49,396 nucleotides of DNA from a virus. The DNA is taken from IMG/VR virus record IMGVR_UViG_3300011113_000170, positions 1-49,396 of that record; one strand, given 5' to 3'. Of this stretch, positions 39,606 to 49,396 are shown piece by piece (the stretch's first letter is position 1; the number at the start of each line of letters is the position of its first letter). The position numbers and the translations under genes are program-made. The notes beneath the pieces were generated by a model. That model was given only the letters and a program-made list of their open reading frames with translations, was not told the origin of the DNA and did not search any database.

Positions 39606-40286
39606 TTACCTCACCGGGTAGCGGACCTGCTCGGTCCGATACATGTCCTGACGGTTCTTGCCTTCGCCCAGCTGCTTCAGCAGGTTTAGCGCTTCGTCGT
39701 AGCGCTTTTGGTAGCTAGCAATCACGTCCTGCTCACCCTTCATGAAGGTATAAGCCTCCAGCAGGGAGCCGTAAAGCAGCACGCTTTCGAAGTTGTCCCC
39801 GAGCCACGAGGTGCTCGCAGTCGTGATCGACGGCGGGTAGTAGAAATAGTGCAGCTCGACCTCATAGTTATCGTCCGGGGTAGGCCCGAGGATATACGAG
39901 TTTTCGTCAAAATAGGCGTAGTGAGACGGGAGACCTTCATCGTTAGGGTTGGGAAACGCCTGACGGATGTAGCTGACGTCTTTGTTCAGCAGGTACTCAT
40001 AGTTGCCATCGCCGTCGATCACAGCCAGTGAGAAGTTGGCCAGCCAGTCAGACGGCACCGAGAGGTACTTGTTACCCGCCGTGCAGTTACCCGTCACGTT
40101 CTTGCGCAGGTCCAGCAGTTGGACCGCGTTGAAGATACGCTCTTCGGCGTTGACGATGAAGGTATTGATCTGCTCCGTTGAGGTAAACGTCACCGTCCCC
40201 GTGCCGGCAGAATCCGTCCACGAGGTGTTGGGGAAGTCGTTTTCGACATACCCCTTGATGGCCTCAAAGAGCTGAGCGTAGTTCAT
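39606..40286 (-). CDS. Head-tail adaptor protein (SU10-adaptor type)
   Basis: The 226-residue product begins MNYAQLFEAIKGYVENDFPN, then EQINTFIVNAEERIFNAVQL, LPSDWL-type turn (YLSVPSDWLANFSLAVIDGD), and later YFYYPPSITTASTSWLGDN and LLYGSLLEAYTFMKGEQDVI. This is the layout of the SU10-type adaptor and other gp4/gp11-like connector proteins that bind under the portal. ATG 40286 overlaps the upstream stop (TGATG); an in-frame TTG one codon earlier is less likely. A second, different adaptor-like gene lies at 41429. Confidence 0.8.
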   Translation of the reverse strand: MNYAQLFEAIKGYVENDFPNTSWTDSAGTGTVTFTSTEQINTFIVNAEERIFNAVQLLDLRKNVTGNCTAGNKYLSVPSDWLANFSLAVIDGDGNYEYLLNKDVSYIRQAFPNPNDEGLPSHYAYFDENSYILGPTPDDNYEVELHYFYYPPSITTASTSWLGDNFESVLLYGSLLEAYTFMKGEQDVIASYQKRYDEALNLLKQLGEGKNRQDMYRTEQVRYPVR

Positions 40287-40429
40287 CAACCCATCTTCGT
40301 ACTGTGCCCAGTGCCCTTGGTCGCCGCACCGGTGCCGCGCGTCTTCTGGGTCTGGGTGTTGGCGATGTTGTTCGGGTAGCCGCTGTTGTTCTTACCAACA
40401 GGGACCTGCTTCGGAGTGCCGTTAGCCAT
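40286..40429 (-). CDS. Small basic protein, 47 residues
   Basis: The product (MANGTPKQVPVGKNNSGYPN, ending KTRGTGAATKGTGHSTKMG) is Gly/Thr/Lys-rich and probably disordered. It overlaps both neighbours (8 bases with the upstream gene, TGATG with the adaptor). It belongs to the group of small basic proteins of the virion arm; function unknown. Confidence 0.55.
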   Translation of the reverse strand: MANGTPKQVPVGKNNSGYPNNIANTQTQKTRGTGAATKGTGHSTKMG

Positions 40430-40547
40430 TTTTGTTCACCTTACCCATGTCCTTGACCGGCTTCTTACCGCTCTTCTGGTTGGCGAGCTTGGCGAGGTTA
40501 CGACCCATCGCCAGCATCTGCGCGTTTGTCTTACCACCCTTGGCCAT
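40422..40547 (-). CDS. Small basic protein starting MAKGGK, 41 residues
   Basis: The product MAKGGKTNAQMLAMGRNLAK continues with a Lys-rich helix and ends KDMGKVNKNG. Its N-terminus is the AKGG box found inside several other proteins of this arm. It lies 1 base from the zinc-ribbon gene and overlaps the next. No family recognised. Confidence 0.55.
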   Translation of the reverse strand: MAKGGKTNAQMLAMGRNLAKLANQKSGKKPVKDMGKVNKNG

Positions 40548-41428: not shown

Positions 41429-42145
41429 TTATCGGAAATACTGGCGTGGAGCAATTCGCAGGGCGGCTTTCTCTCGGTCTTCGTCAGCAGCCTGCTGCCA
41501 AGCTTCGTCGTACATCTGCTTCAGCATGATGGACCGCTCCAGCGCGTCGGGGATTTTCAACGAGAGATGATACGCCAAGCCCGCCACGAGGCACGGCAGG
41601 AAGCGGAAAGGGATGTCCTGTGTGTTGACGCCCGTACCGGAGTCCTTAATACGCCGCAGGCGGTAGTAGAAGAAGGTGTAGTAGTTGTTCTGGTCCGGGG
41701 CGGGCCACACGTTGATCTGCGGGTTAGCGACCCCCGTGGCTGGGTAGTCTGCACCTGACCGGCGGTTGATCCACACCTGAATAGGACGCCCCTGCGCGTT
41801 CTTGTTAGGGATCGTGATGTAGGTATCGGCGCTGATGCGGGTGATGTTGATGTCGATCTGGTTCGGACCCGAACCCGCGTTGGTGCGGATAACTTGCTCC
41901 AGAAGATCAATTGTATCCACAGGCAGGTCGTAGGTGATTTGTCCCTGCACCATGGGGACCGACCCCTGCTCAAGAGTCCACAGGTTTATCCCCCGGTTGG
42001 CCCACTCGATGGTCAGCAGGTTCAGGCTGCGCCGCGCCGTGCGGAAGTCGTAGCCCGTGCGCAACTCAGCACCGCAGCGCTCAAAAGCCTCTTCGATGAG
42101 GCTATTAAGGTCCAGATTAAACTCTGCCGTGCTGGTCGTAGTCAT
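41429..42145 (-). CDS. Second adaptor/connector-like protein
   Basis: The 238-residue product (LDLNSLIEEAFERCGAELRT, ARRSLNLLTIEWANRGINLW, QGQITYDLPVDTIDLLEQVI, PFRFLPCLVAGLAYHLSLKI, MLKQMYDEAWQQAADEDREK) has the helical-beta-helical layout of tail-tube-A or gp11-like connector proteins. The YDLPVDTI turn resembles that of adaptor proteins. It and the gene at 39606 probably build successive rings between portal and tail. Confidence 0.75.
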   Translation of the reverse strand: MTTTSTAEFNLDLNSLIEEAFERCGAELRTGYDFRTARRSLNLLTIEWANRGINLWTLEQGSVPMVQGQITYDLPVDTIDLLEQVIRTNAGSGPNQIDINITRISADTYITIPNKNAQGRPIQVWINRRSGADYPATGVANPQINVWPAPDQNNYYTFFYYRLRRIKDSGTGVNTQDIPFRFLPCLVAGLAYHLSLKIPDALERSIMLKQMYDEAWQQAADEDREKAALRIAPRQYFR

Positions 42146-43095
42146 TAGCGGTTGTAACCCCTCTGGCGGTTAGCCAGCTGCTGAATACCACGCATAGCTT
42201 GCATACGCGGCGGCTCCGGCCTAACCTGCTGCGGCATCTGCGGCTTAAAATCGGCCAAACCACCCGCAACAAGCCGATTAGCACGGTCTTGCATACTTCC
42301 GAGGGGTTGGTTCATCATCGGCATCTGCGGCTGCCCGCCTACCTGATTGAGGCTCTGCTGCATCTGCTCAGGAGAGAACCCCAGCATCCCCGGACGCCCT
42401 TGCGCTTGAAGCTGCTGATTTAACGCGTAAATTTGCTGAGCCTGTGCTGCCTGTTGCGGCTGCTGCATCTGCGCCTGCGTAGCTTGGCCTAGCGTGGGCG
42501 GCTGTGGAGCGCCCATCGGACCCCCGGTGAGGTCGGGTCTGCTGTTTTGGCCGAAGCCGCTACCCATAGATTGTAGCGTTGCAGCTTGAGCCGCAGCTTG
42601 AGATGGCCCAAATTCTTGCGGGGGCTGCATCTGTCGGTCATAAAAGTCGCGGCTACCCCCACCCGGTCCAATCATCGGCATCTGCGGAGCCTGCTGGCCC
42701 ATCTGCTGCTGGCCCCTGAAGCTTTGGAGCGCCTGCTGCAACTGCGACTGGATTGACTGCTGCTGCTGGTTACCGAAACCGCCGGGGTTCTGCTGCGGTT
42801 GCTGTGGACGGAGAGAACCTAAAAGCCCTCCCGACTGCTGCGGCGGCTGGGCAATGTTTATAGCCATCCCGTTACCAAAGCCCTCGTACGCTGGCTGCTG
42901 CGGCATCTGCGAAGCCTGCTGCTGACGCATGAAGTCTTGGAACGCGCCCATACCGCCGCCATAACCACCGAGGTTCTGCTGCGGCATCTGCGGTTCCATC
43001 GGCTGCATCGGCTTTTGCAGCATCGGGGACTGTTGGCCACCAAAACCGCCGCCCATCTGCGGTTGCCCCAGCTGGCCTGCAACCGGCTTACCCAT
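42145..43095 (-). CDS. Gln/Pro/Met/Gly-rich low-complexity protein
   Basis: The 316-residue product starts MGKPVAGQLGQPQMGGGFGG and is dominated by QQPQ, MPQQ and GGFG tracts, with scattered hydrophobic anchors. It should be disordered. Like the PPMG and Gln-rich proteins at 22443 and 23863 it may be a flexible virion or scaffold component. ATG 43095 is preferred over the longer frame to 43143, which overlaps the upstream gene further. Confidence 0.6.
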   Translation of the reverse strand: MGKPVAGQLGQPQMGGGFGGQQSPMLQKPMQPMEPQMPQQNLGGYGGGMGAFQDFMRQQQASQMPQQPAYEGFGNGMAINIAQPPQQSGGLLGSLRPQQPQQNPGGFGNQQQQSIQSQLQQALQSFRGQQQMGQQAPQMPMIGPGGGSRDFYDRQMQPPQEFGPSQAAAQAATLQSMGSGFGQNSRPDLTGGPMGAPQPPTLGQATQAQMQQPQQAAQAQQIYALNQQLQAQGRPGMLGFSPEQMQQSLNQVGGQPQMPMMNQPLGSMQDRANRLVAGGLADFKPQMPQQVRPEPPRMQAMRGIQQLANRQRGYNR

Positions 43096-43378
43096 CGTAC
43101 TTCCCTTTCTGTCTACGCGCTGCCTGTACACGCTTAGGTGCACCCGGAGGTTGCCCCAACCGTTTCTTCTGAGCGATACGCGTCTTCTTCTCCGTGGGGG
43201 TCATTTCCGACGACGTCTTGGGGGTCTTATCAGAAATACGCTTGCTGGGTCTACAATAAGGTGTGCCGCGCTTCTCACCGGGCTGACGCCCGCAGGCTTT
43301 ACCCGTACGGACGTCCTTCCAGTCCTCTTGGAACCAGCGCTTAAGCGAAGCGCCTTTCTCGGTCTTACGAACTGCCAC
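43088..43378 (-). CDS. DUF5872-like basic protein
   Basis: The product (VAVRKTEKGASLKRWFQEDW, KDVRTGKACGRQPGEKRGTP, YCRPSKRISDKTPKTSSEMT) shows the DUF5872 pattern: LK-W-F-E-W, CGR, YC-PS-R and a Lys-rich tail. GTG 43378 overlaps the end of the upstream gene. Members are small basic phage proteins of unknown function, perhaps DNA-associated in the capsid. A longer frame to 43504 is rejected because it would run far into the upstream gene. Confidence 0.75.
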   Translation of the reverse strand: MAVRKTEKGASLKRWFQEDWKDVRTGKACGRQPGEKRGTPYCRPSKRISDKTPKTSSEMTPTEKKTRIAQKKRLGQPPGAPKRVQAARRQKGKYDG

Positions 43379-43643
43379 CTTTGTTACCCCAGTTCTTGGC
43401 ACCGACCTTACGGCACTTGGAGATAGCACCCGAGGCGTAGGCGGAAGGGAAGACTTTGTAGCGCGCCTTGACCTTGGAGTAGCACTCATCCTTGGTGCTA
43501 CCACCTTCAGCCATGCGCTTTGCCTTAACCTTGCCGCCCTTGGCGTACATGGTGACCTCGCCGGGGTTGTCCTTCCGACGAATAGTCTTCGCCTTTGGCA
43601 TCTTAGATGCCTTTATGGCACCCATACCCCGACTCGGTCGCAT
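43365..43643 (-). CDS. Small basic protein with two AxGG boxes
   Basis: The product starts MRPSRGMGAIKASKMPKAKT and contains MYAKGGKVKAKRMAEGGSTK and DECYSKVKARYKVFPSAYAS, then GAISKCRKVGAKNWGNKGGS. The MRPSRGMGAI N-terminus and YKVFPSAYASGAI block are typical of small marine phage proteins of unknown role. ATG 43643 lies 1 base after the upstream stop (TGATATG). Two Cys residues and high Lys content suggest nucleic-acid or assembly contacts. Confidence 0.7.
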   Translation of the reverse strand: MRPSRGMGAIKASKMPKAKTIRRKDNPGEVTMYAKGGKVKAKRMAEGGSTKDECYSKVKARYKVFPSAYASGAISKCRKVGAKNWGNKGGSS

Positions 43644-43644
43644 A

Positions 43645-43905
43645 TCAGCAGCTCTTTCCGCCCATGGCCATCTTCGGCATCTTGGTGTCGGTCTTGCCCT
43701 TCTTGGCAACGCCGTCAGCAGCCTTGTGACCACCGGCCAGACCGCCAGCGGCCTTCTTCGGCATCATCTTCTTCATACCCATCTTCTTGTCCTTCATCTC
43801 GAACTCCTTACCGACCTTAGAGGGAACGCCCACCTTCTTGGCGAACTTGGGGTTGTTGGCCACAGCGGCCATGAAGCTCTTCTGCTTGGGGGTCTTGCTA
43901 GGCAT
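43645..43905 (-). CDS. DUF3008-like protein with ADGVA..GKT tag
   Basis: The 86-residue product reads MPSKTPKQKSFMAAVANNPK, FAKKVGVPSKVGKEFEMKDK (the DUF3008-type core), then KAAGGLAGGHKAADGVAKKG and KTDTKMPKMAMGGKSC. The C-terminal part carries a variant of the ADGCA..GKT tag found on three proteins encoded at 44333-46061. It is highly basic. Stop and next start are coupled (TGATATG). Confidence 0.75.
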   Translation of the reverse strand: MPSKTPKQKSFMAAVANNPKFAKKVGVPSKVGKEFEMKDKKMGMKKMMPKKAAGGLAGGHKAADGVAKKGKTDTKMPKMAMGGKSC

Positions 43906-43906
43906 G

Positions 43907-44071
43907 TTAGTCCTTCCCGAGAAATTTTTGCACCGTATCTGTCTCATAGATACGGATGCTAGTCCAGATGATGGTGAAGATGGCGGCAACAGCCGGAAGC
44001 ACGTCCATTAAAGTCCCAACAACGGTAAACACCGAGGCTGCGTCGATCATAGTCTTTTCGCCATCAGTCAT
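43907..44071 (-). CDS. Small membrane protein, holin-like
   Basis: The 54-residue product has one hydrophobic segment (FTVVGTLMDVLPAVAAIFTI, continuing IIWTSI) and a short tail RIYETDTVQKFLGKD. I recognise the W-S/T-IRIYET-TVQ tail from many small phage membrane proteins, some annotated as holins. ATG 44071 is coupled to the upstream stop (TGATATG). It is separate from the endolysin cassette at 37.3-38.5 kb. Confidence 0.65.
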   Translation of the reverse strand: MTDGEKTMIDAASVFTVVGTLMDVLPAVAAIFTIIWTSIRIYETDTVQKFLGKD

Positions 44072-44072
44072 A

Positions 44073-44333
44073 TCAGCAATCCCATTTACGAAGCGAGAGC
44101 GCTTTACGCGTCGGGCGACCCTTCTCGTCTTTCATAGGTCCCGGCATACCTGACATCCGAGCGCAAAAGCTCTTACGACGCCCCGCAGCTTTTGGTGACT
44201 TCGCTGCTTCCTTAGCTGATACCGGCGGCTTGAGGTTCATCCCCTGAGCTTTGGCCGACGCACGCCCCTTGGCGTTCAAGCCACCCTTGGGGTTCTTGCC
44301 TTCCTTACGCGTCCAAGCCGGGGACTTAGCCAT
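44073..44333 (-). CDS. DUF6321-like basic protein
   Basis: The 86-residue product is AKSPAWTRKEGKNPKGGLNA, KGRASAKAQGMNLKPPVSAK, EAAKSPKAAGRRKSFCARMS and ends in SLRKWDC, the signature of DUF6321 proteins found in many aquatic phages. It is very basic with two Cys residues near the C-terminus. Binding to nucleic acid inside the capsid is plausible but unproven. The start overlaps the upstream stop (TAATG). Confidence 0.85.
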   Translation of the reverse strand: MAKSPAWTRKEGKNPKGGLNAKGRASAKAQGMNLKPPVSAKEAAKSPKAAGRRKSFCARMSGMPGPMKDEKGRPTRKALSLRKWDC

Positions 44334-45238
44334 TAGCAGATTTTCCCCTTGGTCTTGCCGCGCACCGCGCAGCCGTCACCGCGCTTGGAGACGGAGCCGC
44401 CCTTGGCCATACCCGGCGTCCGTGGAATAGCGCGGCTAGCAGCGTCGGAAAGACTGGCCGTGGTCGCCCTACCGATATTAGAAGCCAGCCGTTTTTCCTC
44501 GGCTTCTTTCTTGTCTTTCATGGCTTTCGTGGCAGCCAGACTGCGATCTGCGTCGGCGTTCAAATCTTTCACAAACTTGCGAATTTGCGTGTCATCCAGA
44601 CTGCGATCTGCGGCCTTGTCGTTGTCGCTCATGAACTTGCGAATCTGCGTGTCCGTCATCGGAGAATTACTGGTATCTATGTTACGCGCAATATTCTTCA
44701 TCGGAGTCTTGGCGCTGAAGGGGTCGGTCGCTTTCGTTTCAGCCACAGGCTTAGCTTTAGGCTTTTCACCCGCCAGCTGCGTGCCGTAGGACTTGCCCAT
44801 CCATTTAAAAGTATCAGGGCCGCCAGCGAGCGCTTTCTTCCGCGCCGCAGCAAAAGCATCTCGGAACGACTGTTTCTTCGCTTCTTTCGCCTGAGCGGCA
44901 TTCGCTTTGCGCGCTTCCGCTCCCTTAGATTCCAAGCCAGAAGTGTCAAACGATGTCTTTGACCGAGACGCTTCTTCCAGACCCTTCATGTCGATGTCGA
45001 CCGGCTTCACCTTACCACCTTTGGCGTATTTCTGCACCGCCTTCAGGTCCTCGGCATTTTTCTTGGACATGCGATTACCTGAAGCGATGGCATCGCCAAC
45101 TGACGGGCGGGTGCTCCGCGTAGCGGGCATGAGCTTTTTGGTCTCAGCGCCAACCTGACGCGAGACACGGTTGCCCGACTCCATCGACTCCTTCATCGAC
45201 GGCATACCGCCCGAGCCGAACTTGCGCTTCTTCATCAT
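44333..45238 (-). CDS. Basic protein with AKGG box and C-terminal GDGCA tag
   Basis: The 301-residue product has YAKGGKVKPVD near 71-81, SFRDAFAAARKKALAGGPDT followed by FKWMGKSYGTQLAGE (a block common in marine phage proteins), an internal duplication DTQIRKFMSDNDKAADRSL / DTQIRKFVKDLNADADRSL, and a C-terminal tag MAKGGSVSKRGDGCAVRGKT (277-296) followed by KGKIC. Otherwise rich in Lys, Ala and Ser and probably partly disordered. It overlaps both neighbours. Confidence 0.7.
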   Translation of the reverse strand: MMKKRKFGSGGMPSMKESMESGNRVSRQVGAETKKLMPATRSTRPSVGDAIASGNRMSKKNAEDLKAVQKYAKGGKVKPVDIDMKGLEEASRSKTSFDTSGLESKGAEARKANAAQAKEAKKQSFRDAFAAARKKALAGGPDTFKWMGKSYGTQLAGEKPKAKPVAETKATDPFSAKTPMKNIARNIDTSNSPMTDTQIRKFMSDNDKAADRSLDDTQIRKFVKDLNADADRSLAATKAMKDKKEAEEKRLASNIGRATTASLSDAASRAIPRTPGMAKGGSVSKRGDGCAVRGKTKGKIC

Positions 45239-45555
45239 ACGAACCGTCCCTTCGTCTTACCCTTGGTGGCGCAGCCATCGGCGCGCTTGGAGGCGCTACC
45301 GCCCTTGGCCATCTTCTTAACCGCGCCGCCTCGCTTCATGCCGCCAGCAGACGCTTCTTCAGCGTCCTTCGCTGCGTCTTCCGCCCTGTTGGCGCGCAGT
45401 TTTTTCCGCTGACTAGAAGCGAGCATGGGCATTAGGCCGCCTAGCGGGCCCATAGCATCACCAAGGCCGCCGAGAGCGTTACCGAACAGACCCTGCCCGC
45501 TGACGGCCCCATACATCGGGGAGATGGAGCCGAGGATTTTGTCGATCTTAGCCAT
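45235..45555 (-). CDS. Small protein with C-terminal ADGCA tag
   Basis: The 106-residue product starts with a Gly-rich hydrophobic half (LFGNALGGLGDAMGPLGGLM), then a charged helix (RKKLRANRAEDAAKDAEEAS), KRGGAVKK and the tag MAKGGSASKRADGCATKGKT at 82-101. The tag's DNA (45238-45312) is closely similar to that of the next upstream gene. Hydrophobic Gly-rich plus basic tail could fit a capsid-internal or membrane-contacting protein. Confidence 0.7.
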   Translation of the reverse strand: MAKIDKILGSISPMYGAVSGQGLFGNALGGLGDAMGPLGGLMPMLASSQRKKLRANRAEDAAKDAEEASAGGMKRGGAVKKMAKGGSASKRADGCATKGKTKGRFV

Positions 45556-46061
45556 CAGACGAACCTTCCTTTAGTTTTACCCTTGGTGGCGCAGCCGTCA
45601 GCGCGCTTGGAGGCGGTGGAACCGCCCTTGGCCATCTTCTTGACAGGTTTCTTTTTAACTTTACCGCCTTTGGCAAATTCAAAATTCGCGTTGGCACCAA
45701 ACATAGGTGCCCCTTGCCTACCCATCAGTCCTCGGCCAAGACCCGCACCAACATTGAAATTTTTACCTTGGTATTCTGCACCGTACACCGGCCCTGCAAC
45801 AGTACCAACCTTACCAAACCGCACGGTATTAGCGGGCTGTGAAGCACCTCCACGCGCAGCAGGGGGAGGAGCGGGCATACCACCACCGCCTTCACCCGGC
45901 ATCGACGGGCCCATACCACCGCCGCCGGGTACGTTCAGATCGGCTAGGTTAAACTGACCAAAGCGCCGACCAGTTACCGTGACCGGTGCGTCTTCAGGTT
46001 CCACGCGCATGACGTTGTTGCTGATAACACCCCCATCGCGGTACCGCTTCTTGCGCTTCAT
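45555..46061 (-). CDS. Gly-rich protein with AKGG box and C-terminal ADGCA tag
   Basis: The 168-residue product starts MKRKKRYRDGGVISNNVMRV, has a Gly/Pro-rich middle (VPGGGGMGPSMPGEGGGGMP), a beta-like section (TVAGPVYGAEYQGKNFNVGA), then FAKGGKVKKKPVKK and the tag MAKGGSTASKRADGCATKGK (143-162). It shares the last 40 residues with the protein at 45235. AAGGATGTAGC precedes ATG 46061, an ordinary ribosome-binding site. Confidence 0.7.
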   Translation of the reverse strand: MKRKKRYRDGGVISNNVMRVEPEDAPVTVTGRRFGQFNLADLNVPGGGGMGPSMPGEGGGGMPAPPPAARGGASQPANTVRFGKVGTVAGPVYGAEYQGKNFNVGAGLGRGLMGRQGAPMFGANANFEFAKGGKVKKKPVKKMAKGGSTASKRADGCATKGKTKGRFV

Positions 46062-46792
46062 GCTACATCCTTCTGCGGAACAACCATCGGGTAGAGGACG
46101 TCGTCCCCAAAGTTACCGGTGTACTCCTGCACACCCATGTGACCGAGGCTAATGGTCGGGTCGACCCACACTTCATAACCCAGCTCGCGGGCACGGTCGC
46201 AGAACAGGAAGTCCTCGCCCATGTAACCCTCGTCGGTGAGCTTGAAGTCGAACAGGGCCGGGACCGTCTTCTCGCAGCGCTTGTCGTAGTACTTCCACTC
46301 CGGATGCGCAGCGATCATGGTCTCGATGACGTTACGCTGAATCAGCATGAACGCTGTAGCTACGCGCGTAGCCCGAACAAGACCCATACCATTCATCGTC
46401 AGCTCGCCGTTTTCATCATGGTCGAGGTTTGCGATGTAGGTTTTGTTGACGTCCCGGACGCGGGGGACACCCGCCACAATACCCTTCTTGGGGTCTTGCG
46501 CCCACGCCATCAGGCGCAGGATGTCTTCGGGTTCGAAGTTGATGTCCGAGTCGATGAACAGCAGGTAATCAGCGTCCGACTCAAGCAGGTCCTGCACCAG
46601 CAGGTTGCGCGCCCGAGAGACCACTGAGCAGCCACAGACGCTGCCGATGTTGATGTCGATACCGTGCTTAGGAGCCAGCTGCGCGAAGCGAGCAAGCGAG
46701 ACCGCAAGCTTCAGCGACACCTTGAAGTCGTAGGCGGGGAGGCCGATGAAGACCCCTTTTCCCGCCATATCGAAGCCTTTGACTGCTTGCAT
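46058..46792 (-). CDS. GT-A type glycosyltransferase-like protein, copy 2
   Basis: The 244-residue product has GVFIGLPAYDFKVSLKLAVS, SVVSRARNLLVQDLLESDAD, YLLFIDSDINFEPEDILRLM (DxD motif), TAFMLIQRNVIETM, GYMGEDFLFCDRARELGYEV and WVDPTISLGHMGVQEYTG. Block order matches the protein at 7737-8522. It is expressed with virion genes, so it may act late, for example on virion proteins, DNA or host glycan. The substrate is unknown. The stop overlaps the start of the downstream gene. Confidence 0.88.
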   Translation of the reverse strand: MQAVKGFDMAGKGVFIGLPAYDFKVSLKLAVSLARFAQLAPKHGIDINIGSVCGCSVVSRARNLLVQDLLESDADYLLFIDSDINFEPEDILRLMAWAQDPKKGIVAGVPRVRDVNKTYIANLDHDENGELTMNGMGLVRATRVATAFMLIQRNVIETMIAAHPEWKYYDKRCEKTVPALFDFKLTDEGYMGEDFLFCDRARELGYEVWVDPTISLGHMGVQEYTGNFGDDVLYPMVVPQKDVA

Positions 46793-46795
46793 ATG

Positions 46796-47272
46796 TCACC
46801 CGTAGAAGACTGTAGCAGTTATGTTAGCGGGTAATCCCACGTAAATCCCATTGTCAGCAAGGATGCCTTCGCCGGGAACAAGGATAGAATACGCCACAGC
46901 GTTATAGCTATCGGCTTCCAGCAAGACGGTCATGTAGACATTCACGTTACCCGTACCAGATGCCGCCGTAGTAACCGTGAAGGAAGTGGCATTAGCCGTA
47001 AGAACGGTGTACTTGCCGTCCACGCCGCTACCGCTGGTGAAATCCATCCATACCGTATCACCAGCAACGAGACTATTCGCCACCGTAACCGTCATCGTAG
47101 TGGATACGATATTATACGTACCCGCTTGCGGATTATTGTCCATGAAAAGGGCGTTCCTCGCTGCCGCAGCTGCGTTAGCGGAGAGGATAGCCCCCTTCAG
47201 ACGGGTGCGGGAACCGTATATAACACCTGAAGTAGACCGGTGTTGGGATTTGACATCGTATTGCATACCCAT
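46796..47272 (-). CDS. Capsid-region structural protein, 158 residues
   Basis: The product (MGMQYDVKSQHRSTSGVIYG, SRTRLKGAILSANAAAAARN) then becomes beta-rich (TMTVTVANSLVAGDTVWMDF, TSFTVTTAASGTGNVNVYMT). It is probably a head decoration or capsid-associated protein, given its place shortly after the capsid gene. AGGAGGG upstream supports ATG 47272. No family confirmed. Confidence 0.65.
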   Translation of the reverse strand: MGMQYDVKSQHRSTSGVIYGSRTRLKGAILSANAAAAARNALFMDNNPQAGTYNIVSTTMTVTVANSLVAGDTVWMDFTSGSGVDGKYTVLTANATSFTVTTAASGTGNVNVYMTVLLEADSYNAVAYSILVPGEGILADNGIYVGLPANITATVFYG

Positions 47273-47296: not shown

Positions 47297-47698
47297 TTAC
47301 GATGCGGTCGTAATCGCGGCCCAGCCTGTCGTGCCGTTCGTGTTGATGTACGCACGAGTTGAAGTCGAGCTACCATCGCTACGCAGGTAAAGCGAACCTT
47401 GAGCAGCCGAAACGGTCGGGGCACCGGAACCGAAATAGATGCCCATGTTGTTAGCCGTATTGGTTGCGATAAACGCAGAAGCGCCGCCAGCGACAAGCGC
47501 GACGTTGCTGTCAGCCGTGACGTTGCCAGTTGCCGCTACCGAAGCTGCCGTGACAGCACCAGTTGCCGCCAGAGAAGTAACCGACATGGCAGGGCCAAGG
47601 GTGGAGGTGACGGTAACCGTACCGGTCGATTGGTTGATCGAGATGGTCTCGAAGCCGTTCTCAGAACGTACCGGACCGTTGAACGTGGTATTCGCCAT
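47297..47698 (-). CDS. Capsid-proximal structural protein, MANTTFNGPVRSE type
   Basis: The 133-residue product starts MANTTFNGPVRSENGFETIS and is Ala/Thr/Ser-rich with repeating strands (SLAATGAVTAASVAATGNVT). The NGPVRSE-GF N-terminus is a common opening of structural proteins encoded beside capsid genes in aquatic phages. It ends GTTGWAAITTAS, a fibre-like C-terminus. It may be a decoration fibre. Confidence 0.7.
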   Translation of the reverse strand: MANTTFNGPVRSENGFETISINQSTGTVTVTSTLGPAMSVTSLAATGAVTAASVAATGNVTADSNVALVAGGASAFIATNTANNMGIYFGSGAPTVSAAQGSLYLRSDGSSTSTRAYINTNGTTGWAAITTAS

Positions 47699-47799: not shown

Positions 47800-48528
47800 T
47801 CAAACATCGTGGGAAGAGCCGACGTAGCGGAAGACCCAGCCTCGGTACGGACCGCGAGTAAGAGGTTTTTCAGACTTCACGGCTCGGTTCACTGTAGGTG
47901 GCGTTAGCCCAAAAGCTTCTCGGAGAGCTGCGATGCTGAGGAACGCTGTGACGACACCAGCCGGGTCGACTGCCTCGACGGCCTTACTGACCTTGGCCTT
48001 GAACGCATCAGAGCGGGGCTTACCGTAGTTATAGTTTTTCTCGCCAGACAGGCTAGCGCTGATCTTGGCGCGTACAGCGGCAGACTTTGGCTTACCCAGC
48101 AGGTACTGCCTGATTTTATCGCGGGACTCGGGGGTATGCGCGCGACCCCGGCTGTGGACCCCAATTGCCTCGCGGGCCTCGTCGGTATGCTTATACCCCC
48201 ACGTTGGGCTTAGCTCGCCACTCATACCGAGGAAGGGAGCGGTGGCGTCGGTGCCGATATTGTAGCAGTAGTCTTTCCCGACGTGCTCCTTGAGCCAGCG
48301 GTTTTCCGCAGCGAGCAGCTGTGCGCGGTCCTCAACCAGCTCAACCGCGACGAAGACAAACGCCTGCTCCCCGTACTTGTTCCACGCAGCCTGAAGATGA
48401 CGGTTTTTGTGTTTGCCGGTGCGCAGCTCCGAGAAATGCCGTGCCTTACGCTTCCGCAGGTTCACGGCGCTTCCAACGTAGAACTTGTTGTTCACGGCGT
48501 TGATGATTTTGTAGATGCCTTGGTTCAT
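47800..48528 (-). CDS. GIY-YIG homing endonuclease with NUMOD repeats
   Basis: The 242-residue product has the GIY-YIG catalytic domain at residues 4-90 (GIYKIINAVNN, FYVGSAVNLRKR, LQAAWNKYGEQAFVF, ENRWLKEHVG), then NUMOD3-type repeats (YKHTDEAREAIGVHSRGRAH, PESRDKIRQYLLGK, AAVRAKISASLSGEKN) and a C-terminal helix-turn-helix NUMOD1-like part (SIAALREAFGLTPPTVNRAV). AGGAGGTCGTC before ATG 48528 is a near-perfect ribosome-binding site. It is inserted between the capsid terminator and the next structural gene; a longer frame to 48609 would start inside the terminator. Confidence 0.93.
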   Translation of the reverse strand: MNQGIYKIINAVNNKFYVGSAVNLRKRKARHFSELRTGKHKNRHLQAAWNKYGEQAFVFVAVELVEDRAQLLAAENRWLKEHVGKDYCYNIGTDATAPFLGMSGELSPTWGYKHTDEAREAIGVHSRGRAHTPESRDKIRQYLLGKPKSAAVRAKISASLSGEKNYNYGKPRSDAFKAKVSKAVEAVDPAGVVTAFLSIAALREAFGLTPPTVNRAVKSEKPLTRGPYRGWVFRYVGSSHDV

Positions 48529-48580
48529 GACGACCTCCTGTGCTGGGGGTACATGAACTAAACGAATAACACAAGAAGAT

Positions 48581-48635: not shown

Positions 48636-49396
48636 TCAAGCAGCGCCTTCGCTACCGTACATTCCGAGCGGATCCGACCACCCAAAACTGTAACGCTCGC
48701 GGCTCTTGTAGCGAACGTTACCGGTGTCGAAGTCACCATCCATGTTCTGCGCCATCGGCGTACGAACAAAGTGCTTCAGGCCGTTCGGCACATCGGTCGT
48801 CAGGAACCATGCGTCCGGGTCGGTCAGGAAGTGGTTGACCGTGTACCCTTCAGGGATGGAGCCGTTCGACTTGATGGCGTTGATGTCGTTGTCAGCGGTC
48901 GACACGCGGAGTTCGGTCTCCAGCAGTCGAGTCGCAACGAACATCAGGCTCGGCGGAACAACCAGCTTCTTCGGCTTAGCCGCGATCAGCAGGCCACGCT
49001 CGTCGGTCCACGCAGCAATCTGGATGACCGCAGCCTCAAGCGAGGTTTCGTTGAGGTCAGCCGCAGTGGCGGGGATGTTCGAGTTGACACCGCCACCAAC
49101 CAGCGGGTGCGAAGCCGAGAACAGAGCCACGCCGTCGCCACCGGGATAATCGGAGTCGAAGCCGTTGTTCAGGACAGCCGCAGCTTTGGTCTGCTTGGTG
49201 TACGCCATGGCACGAGCAAGTGCCTTGGTGTAGCGGGCCGACAGCGAGTCGTACAGGTTGTCTTCGATGGCTTCTTCCGTGATGGAAAACCCGAGAGCAA
49301 TCGTCTCGTGGTTGTAGCGAGCCGTCCAAGCTTCCTGCGCGTTGTCATAAGCGATGGCCGAACCTTCGTTCTTCACCGGCGCAGCCGAGAAGCCCG
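48636..49396 (-). CDS. Major capsid protein, N-terminus outside the window
   Basis: The visible 253 residues include ARYNHETIALGFSITEEAIE, DNLYDSLSARYTKALARAMA, AAVLNNGFDSDYPGGDGVAL, FSASHPLVGGG, LVVPPSLMFVATRLLETELR, WFLTTDVPNGLKHFVRTPMA and YKSRERYSFGWSDPLGMYGS. This matches HK97-fold major capsid proteins of many environmental phages. The frame stays open to the right edge, so the start codon is beyond it. A strong terminator follows. High expression is expected. Confidence 0.93.
   Translation of the reverse strand, partial: GFSAAPVKNEGSAIAYDNAQEAWTARYNHETIALGFSITEEAIEDNLYDSLSARYTKALARAMAYTKQTKAAAVLNNGFDSDYPGGDGVALFSASHPLVGGGVNSNIPATAADLNETSLEAAVIQIAAWTDERGLLIAAKPKKLVVPPSLMFVATRLLETELRVSTADNDINAIKSNGSIPEGYTVNHFLTDPDAWFLTTDVPNGLKHFVRTPMAQNMDGDFDTGNVRYKSRERYSFGWSDPLGMYGSEGAA

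Follow-up and report, generated by a model that had tools for sequence, protein, structure and literature searches.

Cargo-loading peptides of encapsulins are C-terminal, lie on a flexible linker, and are common to unrelated cargo proteins, which are folded enzymes. In phage T4, the capsid targeting sequence (CTS) is N-terminal and is cut off by gp21 after Glu. Here, we analyzed a virus record of 49,396 bases (IMG/VR record IMGVR_UViG_3300011113_000170; "the window" denotes this whole stretch), in which the adjacent genes A, B, and C encode proteins with the common end MAKGGS..SKR[AG]DGCA[TV][KR]GKTKG[RK][FI][VC], hereafter the T1 tag or simply the tag. The best-known parallel to this tag is the CTS of phage T4 (PMC3012670). 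Considering the evidence presented below, we give an even chance to the tag being a lineage-matched C-terminal address peptide that brings small, disordered, basic proteins to the virion.

A common C-terminal end on four proteins of the window

The tag-bearing genes and their tags are the following:

45555-46061, minus strand: tagged protein A, an open reading frame (ORF) of 168 amino acids (aa), Gly/Pro-rich, isoelectric point (pI) 10.8
45558-45635, minus strand: tag of A, MAKGGSTASKRADGCATKGKTKGRFV
45235-45555, minus strand: tagged protein B, an ORF of 106 aa, N-terminal half Gly-rich and hydrophobic
45238-45312, minus strand: tag of B, MAKGGSASKRADGCATKGKTKGRFV
44333-45238, minus strand: tagged protein C, an ORF of 301 aa, Lys/Ala-rich
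44336-44410, minus strand: tag of C, MAKGGSVSKRGDGCAVRGKTKGKIC
43645-43905, minus strand: protein D, with a phrog_16759-type N-terminal domain and the variant tail AADGVAKKGKTDTKMPKMAMGGKSC

The initial annotation had reported a nearly identical tail on three proteins and a variant on a fourth, both of which we recovered at these positions. The variant tag of protein D reads AADGVAKKGKTDTK and is followed by MPKMAMGGKSC; this protein had been described as DUF3008-like, a call that has to be replaced, as it had no DUF3008 match in Pfam and matched phrog_16759 instead. Protein A found no match in Pfam or PHROG searches. Four core motifs were observed in the window against 0.025 expected under a first-order Markov model of its sequence. 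The consensus of the T1 tag is R-[AG]-D-G-[ICV]-A-x-[RK]-G-K-T-[KR]-G-[RK]-hydrophobic-hydrophobic-COOH, placed behind a flexible Gly/Ser/Lys linker and carrying a net charge of about +6. A Cys-containing core had been proposed as its defining feature, which is not sustained, since Ile, Cys, or Val occupy this position freely (the ratio of Cys to Ile depends on the patterns scanned). Some carriers (e.g., L047, L129, and L153) have the core twice, with a degenerate copy ahead of the final one.

The tag is C-terminal and confined to phages

Viral contigs were scanned for DNA encoding DGCA.xGKTKG, with matches in at least 120 contigs. In all 136 copies among the matches listed, the core lay in an open frame within 20 residues of the stop codon, and exactly three residues followed the core in 105 of these 136 (range 3 to about 20). 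Just 2 of the 604 motif matches overall extended more than 52 residues past the motif, and a second viral scan with Ile replacing Cys gave the same C-terminal picture. The core residues were fixed by the search pattern and hence have no evidential value of their own; what it left free was the placement ahead of the stop codon, SASKR upstream of the core, the three terminal residues [RK]-[MIFY]-[VCIL], and the neighboring genes. Up to six tagged proteins were found per genome.

The possibility that such tags occur at random positions in non-phage proteins was not borne out, as only three contigs matched in 84,980 genomes of bacteria and archaea. Two of them encode several tagged ORFs beside homologs of the major capsid protein (MCP) or of the adaptor and are thus phage. 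The third, L226, from a Patulibacter metagenome-assembled genome, was rejected as a real carrier because it is a chimera at the contig edge: in its positions 1-260, bacterial sequence is joined to a phage tag fragment, likely by misassembly. Our literature searches for the motif strings or for common phage C-terminal tails retrieved nothing relevant.

Selection acts on the protein sequence of the tag

At the seven fixed-residue positions of the tag, synonymous codon use was about as free as in the bodies, and third-position identity was 0.46 within contigs and 0.43 between contigs. Selection on the tag acts on the protein and not on the DNA. The tag could alternatively be a selfish DNA or RNA element, or a translational-coupling signal, that is translated by accident; the stop codon overlaps the next start in 227 of 517 ORFs, and the DNA of the A and B copies is 89% identical over 63 nucleotides, as this explanation would have it. 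The conservation at the nucleotide level expected of a mobile DNA element was nevertheless not found, codon freedom and the low identity between contigs contradict such an element, and a 60-aa family encoded downstream of the adaptor has a form of the core close to its N-terminus, which together make this the most improbable of the explanations considered.

Unrelated, disordered, and basic bodies precede the tag

Stripped of tail and linker, the 448 bodies formed 194 clusters, which agrees with a tag attached to different bodies. The tail-less bodies of the window exhibited no significant mutual similarity (best E 0.18), supporting their earlier description as otherwise unrelated; full-length paralogy of the tagged proteins was accordingly rejected, as the bodies do not align beyond the tag. 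A domain search on 110 representative bodies returned one DUF6321 match and no convincing known enzyme or structural domain, and searches of Pfam, NCBIfam, and PADLOC for defence or enzyme domains gave nothing better than weak chance matches. Among 188 DUF6321 proteins, 18 were tagged and 170 untagged. Body sub-families do exist, such as the B family, with 19 tagged members sharing a Gly-rich hydrophobic start.

The tagged proteins are small (median 128 aa), and all have a pI above 9; their bodies, with a pI of about 10, are nearly Cys-free, and 86% are disordered by charge-hydropathy. AlphaFold2 applied to B along with 16 relatives gave a mean predicted local distance difference test score (pLDDT) of 54.9, with the last 41 residues lacking structure and a pLDDT of about 50 over the tail. 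In the relative L110 (capsid protein 98% identical to that of the window), A is kept as a diverged ortholog (L110:10402-10815), and B-like and C-like segments (the latter from the N-terminal segment of C) are fused into a single protein with a single tag, indicating that bodies evolve and recombine fast beneath a constant tail. A wholesale swap of bodies in this relative was considered and dropped, given the diverged A ortholog and the B-C fusion.

This basic composition also raised the alternative of a DNA-binding or DNA-condensing tail on histone-like packing proteins, which would contact DNA rather than a protein receptor. The charge of the tag and the pI of the whole proteins are in line with it, as is the pI above 10 of the neighboring DUF6321, DUF5872, and 43365 gene products. 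On the other hand, conservation is as strong for the D-G pair, for small residues in alternation, and for the hydrophobic pair at the C-terminus as for the charges, most copies keep a fixed distance of three residues to the end, and non-specific DNA binding does not predict the lineage-exclusive tags on homologous bodies described below. We therefore hold a DNA-contacting tail to be improbable.

Tagged genes lie between the capsid and adaptor genes

In the 105 loci having the MCP and adaptor genes in order, 223 tags were located between the two genes, none before them, 3 after them, and none on the opposite strand. Among 32 loci with 3.5 kb or more downstream, a tag-independent search starting from the capsid protein recovered the tag in 31. 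Conversely, tag loci with enough flanking sequence carried this MCP type in 58 of 59 cases and a SU10/Pam1-type adaptor in 50 of 50, and the MCPs of tagged phages are at least 74% identical to that of the window over long alignments. We did not find the tag in the cultured Pelagibacter phages HTVC023P and HTVC027P or the Roseobacter phage CRP-901 (MCP 61-63%), nor in the Dishui Lake genome DSL-LC04 or more distant relatives. The isolates MinM2, Pag-Yong1, and Pra-JY27 (MCP 71%) bear one variant tag each, RDGCAKRGRTKGRFI.

The minus-strand gene order of the window opens inside the major capsid gene, and the genes surrounding those listed above are as follows:

48636-49376, minus strand: MCP, phrog_371, its 5' end lost at the contig end; upstream border of the tag zone
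47800-48534, minus strand: GIY-YIG homing endonuclease, between the capsid gene and the cement-like gene
47297-47698: cement-like protein, by likeness in sequence and position to the cement protein of relatives
46796-47272: unknown gene between the cement-like and glycosyltransferase-like genes
46058-46792: glycosyltransferase-like gene, directly before A, B, and C
44073-44333, minus strand: DUF6321 protein (Pfam), untagged in the window
43365-43676 and 43088-43504, minus strand: two small basic genes with the modules KARYKVFPSAYASGA and DUF5872
41429-42145, minus strand: SU10-type adaptor protein, PF24175; downstream border of the tag zone
40422-40547, minus strand: 41-aa protein (GRNLAKLANQK)
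40286-40429, minus strand: 47-aa protein ending in a second C-terminal motif, RGTGAATKGTGHSTKMG (T5)

A small membrane protein gene lies between the DUF6321 gene and gene D, and a Gln-rich gene follows the two small basic genes before the adaptor. The GIY-YIG gene is not at the corresponding place in L110, and a GroES-like co-chaperonin gene lies upstream of the MCP gene in the relatives L301, L304, and L306. The modules KARYKVFPSAYASGA and DUF5872 reappear in marine sister phages bearing other C-terminal tails. In other tagged phages, relatives of the 41-aa protein exhibit a tag-like core, ADGIAKKGKTEG, near the N-terminus and sit about 1.1-1.4 kb past the adaptor start.

Many phage head proteins undergo processing, and a terminal tag encoded among head genes might accordingly be a propeptide or cleavage signal that a head maturation protease takes off. 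In DSL-LC04, however, genes lying between GroES and MCP matched nothing but function-unknown PHROGs, and no protease was called there or among the head genes of the relative L304. Furthermore, the tags of the window contain no x-x-E site such as T4-type proteases use, and the number of residues after the core varies. Removal by such a protease is consequently very unlikely.

Sister tags and their exchange between lineages

In DSL-LC04, a homolog of a tagged body ends in YAKGGLVTSKGQGRVIRSKKTRIC instead of the tag. The motif RGCGAVMxxRRKxT (T3), taken from marine phage tails, was also tested; it lay within nine residues of the stop in 120 of 120 contigs among the matches listed, and its carriers belong to the same head-neck lineage. 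Reading these loci brought to notice another tag, RGAGIARKGVRPAKMR (T4, here the name of a tag), for which 131 of 133 copies among the matches listed keep a fixed distance from the stop. The tail RGTGAATKG (T5) is likewise C-terminal and occurs close to the adaptor gene in T1, T3, and T4 phages alike. Among the isolates searched for T3, T4, or T5, only phage 023Pt_psg01 was found, bearing T3. T1, T4, and T5 have R-x-x-G-[ICA]-A-x-[RK]-G in common as a loose pattern, and from this resemblance in sequence they may form one family.

None of the 245 T1 loci had T3 or T4 on the same contig, a test of exclusivity limited by fragmentary contigs, and T3 and T4 occurred together on 52 contigs; the presence of T5 with all types indicates that the contigs were long enough for this comparison. 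For 89 T1 bodies there are homologs carrying the T4 tag, as in a phrog_16759-type body that is 78% identical over 36 residues between L136 (T1) and L502 (T4). On a tree of 160 MCP sequences, T1 required 3 changes versus 46 in shuffles. A supported T3/T4 clade (L336, L347, L383, L399, L419, L420, L425, and L428) lies within the T1 capsid clade, which implies that the tag set was switched there. The adaptor tree and the downstream-gene tree required 4-5 tag changes each.

Such a switch, with the capsid protein almost unchanged, could also follow a change of host, if the tag were read during infection by some factor of the host or the phage, such as a chaperone, a protease, or membrane or lysis machinery, with the proteins forming no part of the virion. 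Prc/Tsp are proteases that recognize C-terminal ends, and the hydrophobic C-terminal residues of the tag resemble the sites recognized in this way. The strict confinement to the capsid-adaptor block and the retention of the tag on up to six proteins per genome argue against a reading during infection, which we deem unlikely.

A candidate address peptide for virion loading

The proposed address peptide is based on the C-terminal position, selection at the protein level, unrelated bodies, confinement between capsid and adaptor, and lineage-matched exchange of tags. A constant end on changing bodies, with one version per lineage, encoded among late head-neck genes and switched as a whole set, resembles a recognition peptide for a shared partner. 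The initial annotation had viewed the detachable end as a signal for sorting, packaging, anchoring, or maturation: sorting or anchoring is well supported by the above observations, including the swap on homologous bodies, and cleavage or maturation gained no support.

Mechanistically, one lineage-specific partner in head-neck assembly would recognize the short linear tag, which would recruit or anchor several unrelated, disordered, and strongly basic late proteins on or in the virion. Since the bodies are disordered and basic, packing inside the head beside the DNA is favored as their most likely location, where they might neutralize DNA or serve as injected factors. Ahead of a constant address, the bodies would diverge, undergo fusions, and be replaced rapidly. 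More tentatively, and with somewhat less than even confidence, these tails may constitute an undescribed family of C-terminal "postcode" peptides in a group of environmental tailed phages that is itself abundant, one per lineage, placed on a fast-changing collection of disordered basic proteins for virion loading and switched as a set; this set-wise switching would imply a matching receptor that switches along with them.

Several points weigh against the address peptide. The 110 bodies showed neither a folded nor an enzymatic cargo domain. Other tags are used in a clade whose MCP is 77-81% identical, which makes it improbable that the partner is just the capsid protein. Searching for the receptor by tree congruence gave no perfect fit with the MCP, the adaptor, or the 39606 gene. 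We found no mass spectrometry, virion proteome, or structure of a tag-bearing phage, the only isolates with the tag being MinM2, Pag-Yong1, and Pra-JY27, all in variant form, and gene position by itself is no proof of presence in the virion.

If correct, the proposal would reveal a modular signal that loads proteins into phage particles in hundreds of uncultured aquatic phages. The head-neck genes of the carrier phages are almost all unannotated, and many orphan genes would be annotated at once. The tag would also provide a portable peptide to package cargo into phage heads, the sorting of phage internal proteins would become testable outside phage T4, and tag switching would offer a route to the receptor by comparison.

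Comparison with known systems

Similarly to the CTS of phage T4 (carried by IPI, IPII, IPIII, and Alt), the tag is a short conserved end on otherwise diverse small basic proteins. It differs in being C-terminal, in having no sequence relation to the CTS, and in lacking Glu both in the window copies and in the T1 core consensus, and thus such a cleavage site. The CTS targets proteins to the prohead, and a targeting role for the tag is suggested by analogy. Because location and processing differ, we do not file the tag as a CTS member, and the parallel is one of logic only.

As in encapsulin peptides, the tag is C-terminal on an unstructured linker, but its sequence is different, the tagged bodies are disordered, and no lumenal binding site was identified; a tag profile searched against PDB chains gave no meaningful match to a solved shell-bound peptide. 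The sister tails T3, T4, and T5 are likewise C-terminal on small basic head-neck proteins, some with homologous bodies, and differ from T1 in sequence. Finally, DUF6321, DUF5872, and phrog_16759 are neighboring small basic modules of unknown function, found in varied combinations in phage proteins; these domains span 35-110 residues, whereas the tag comprises about 15-25 residues and can itself be appended to DUF6321 and to the phrog_16759 domain.
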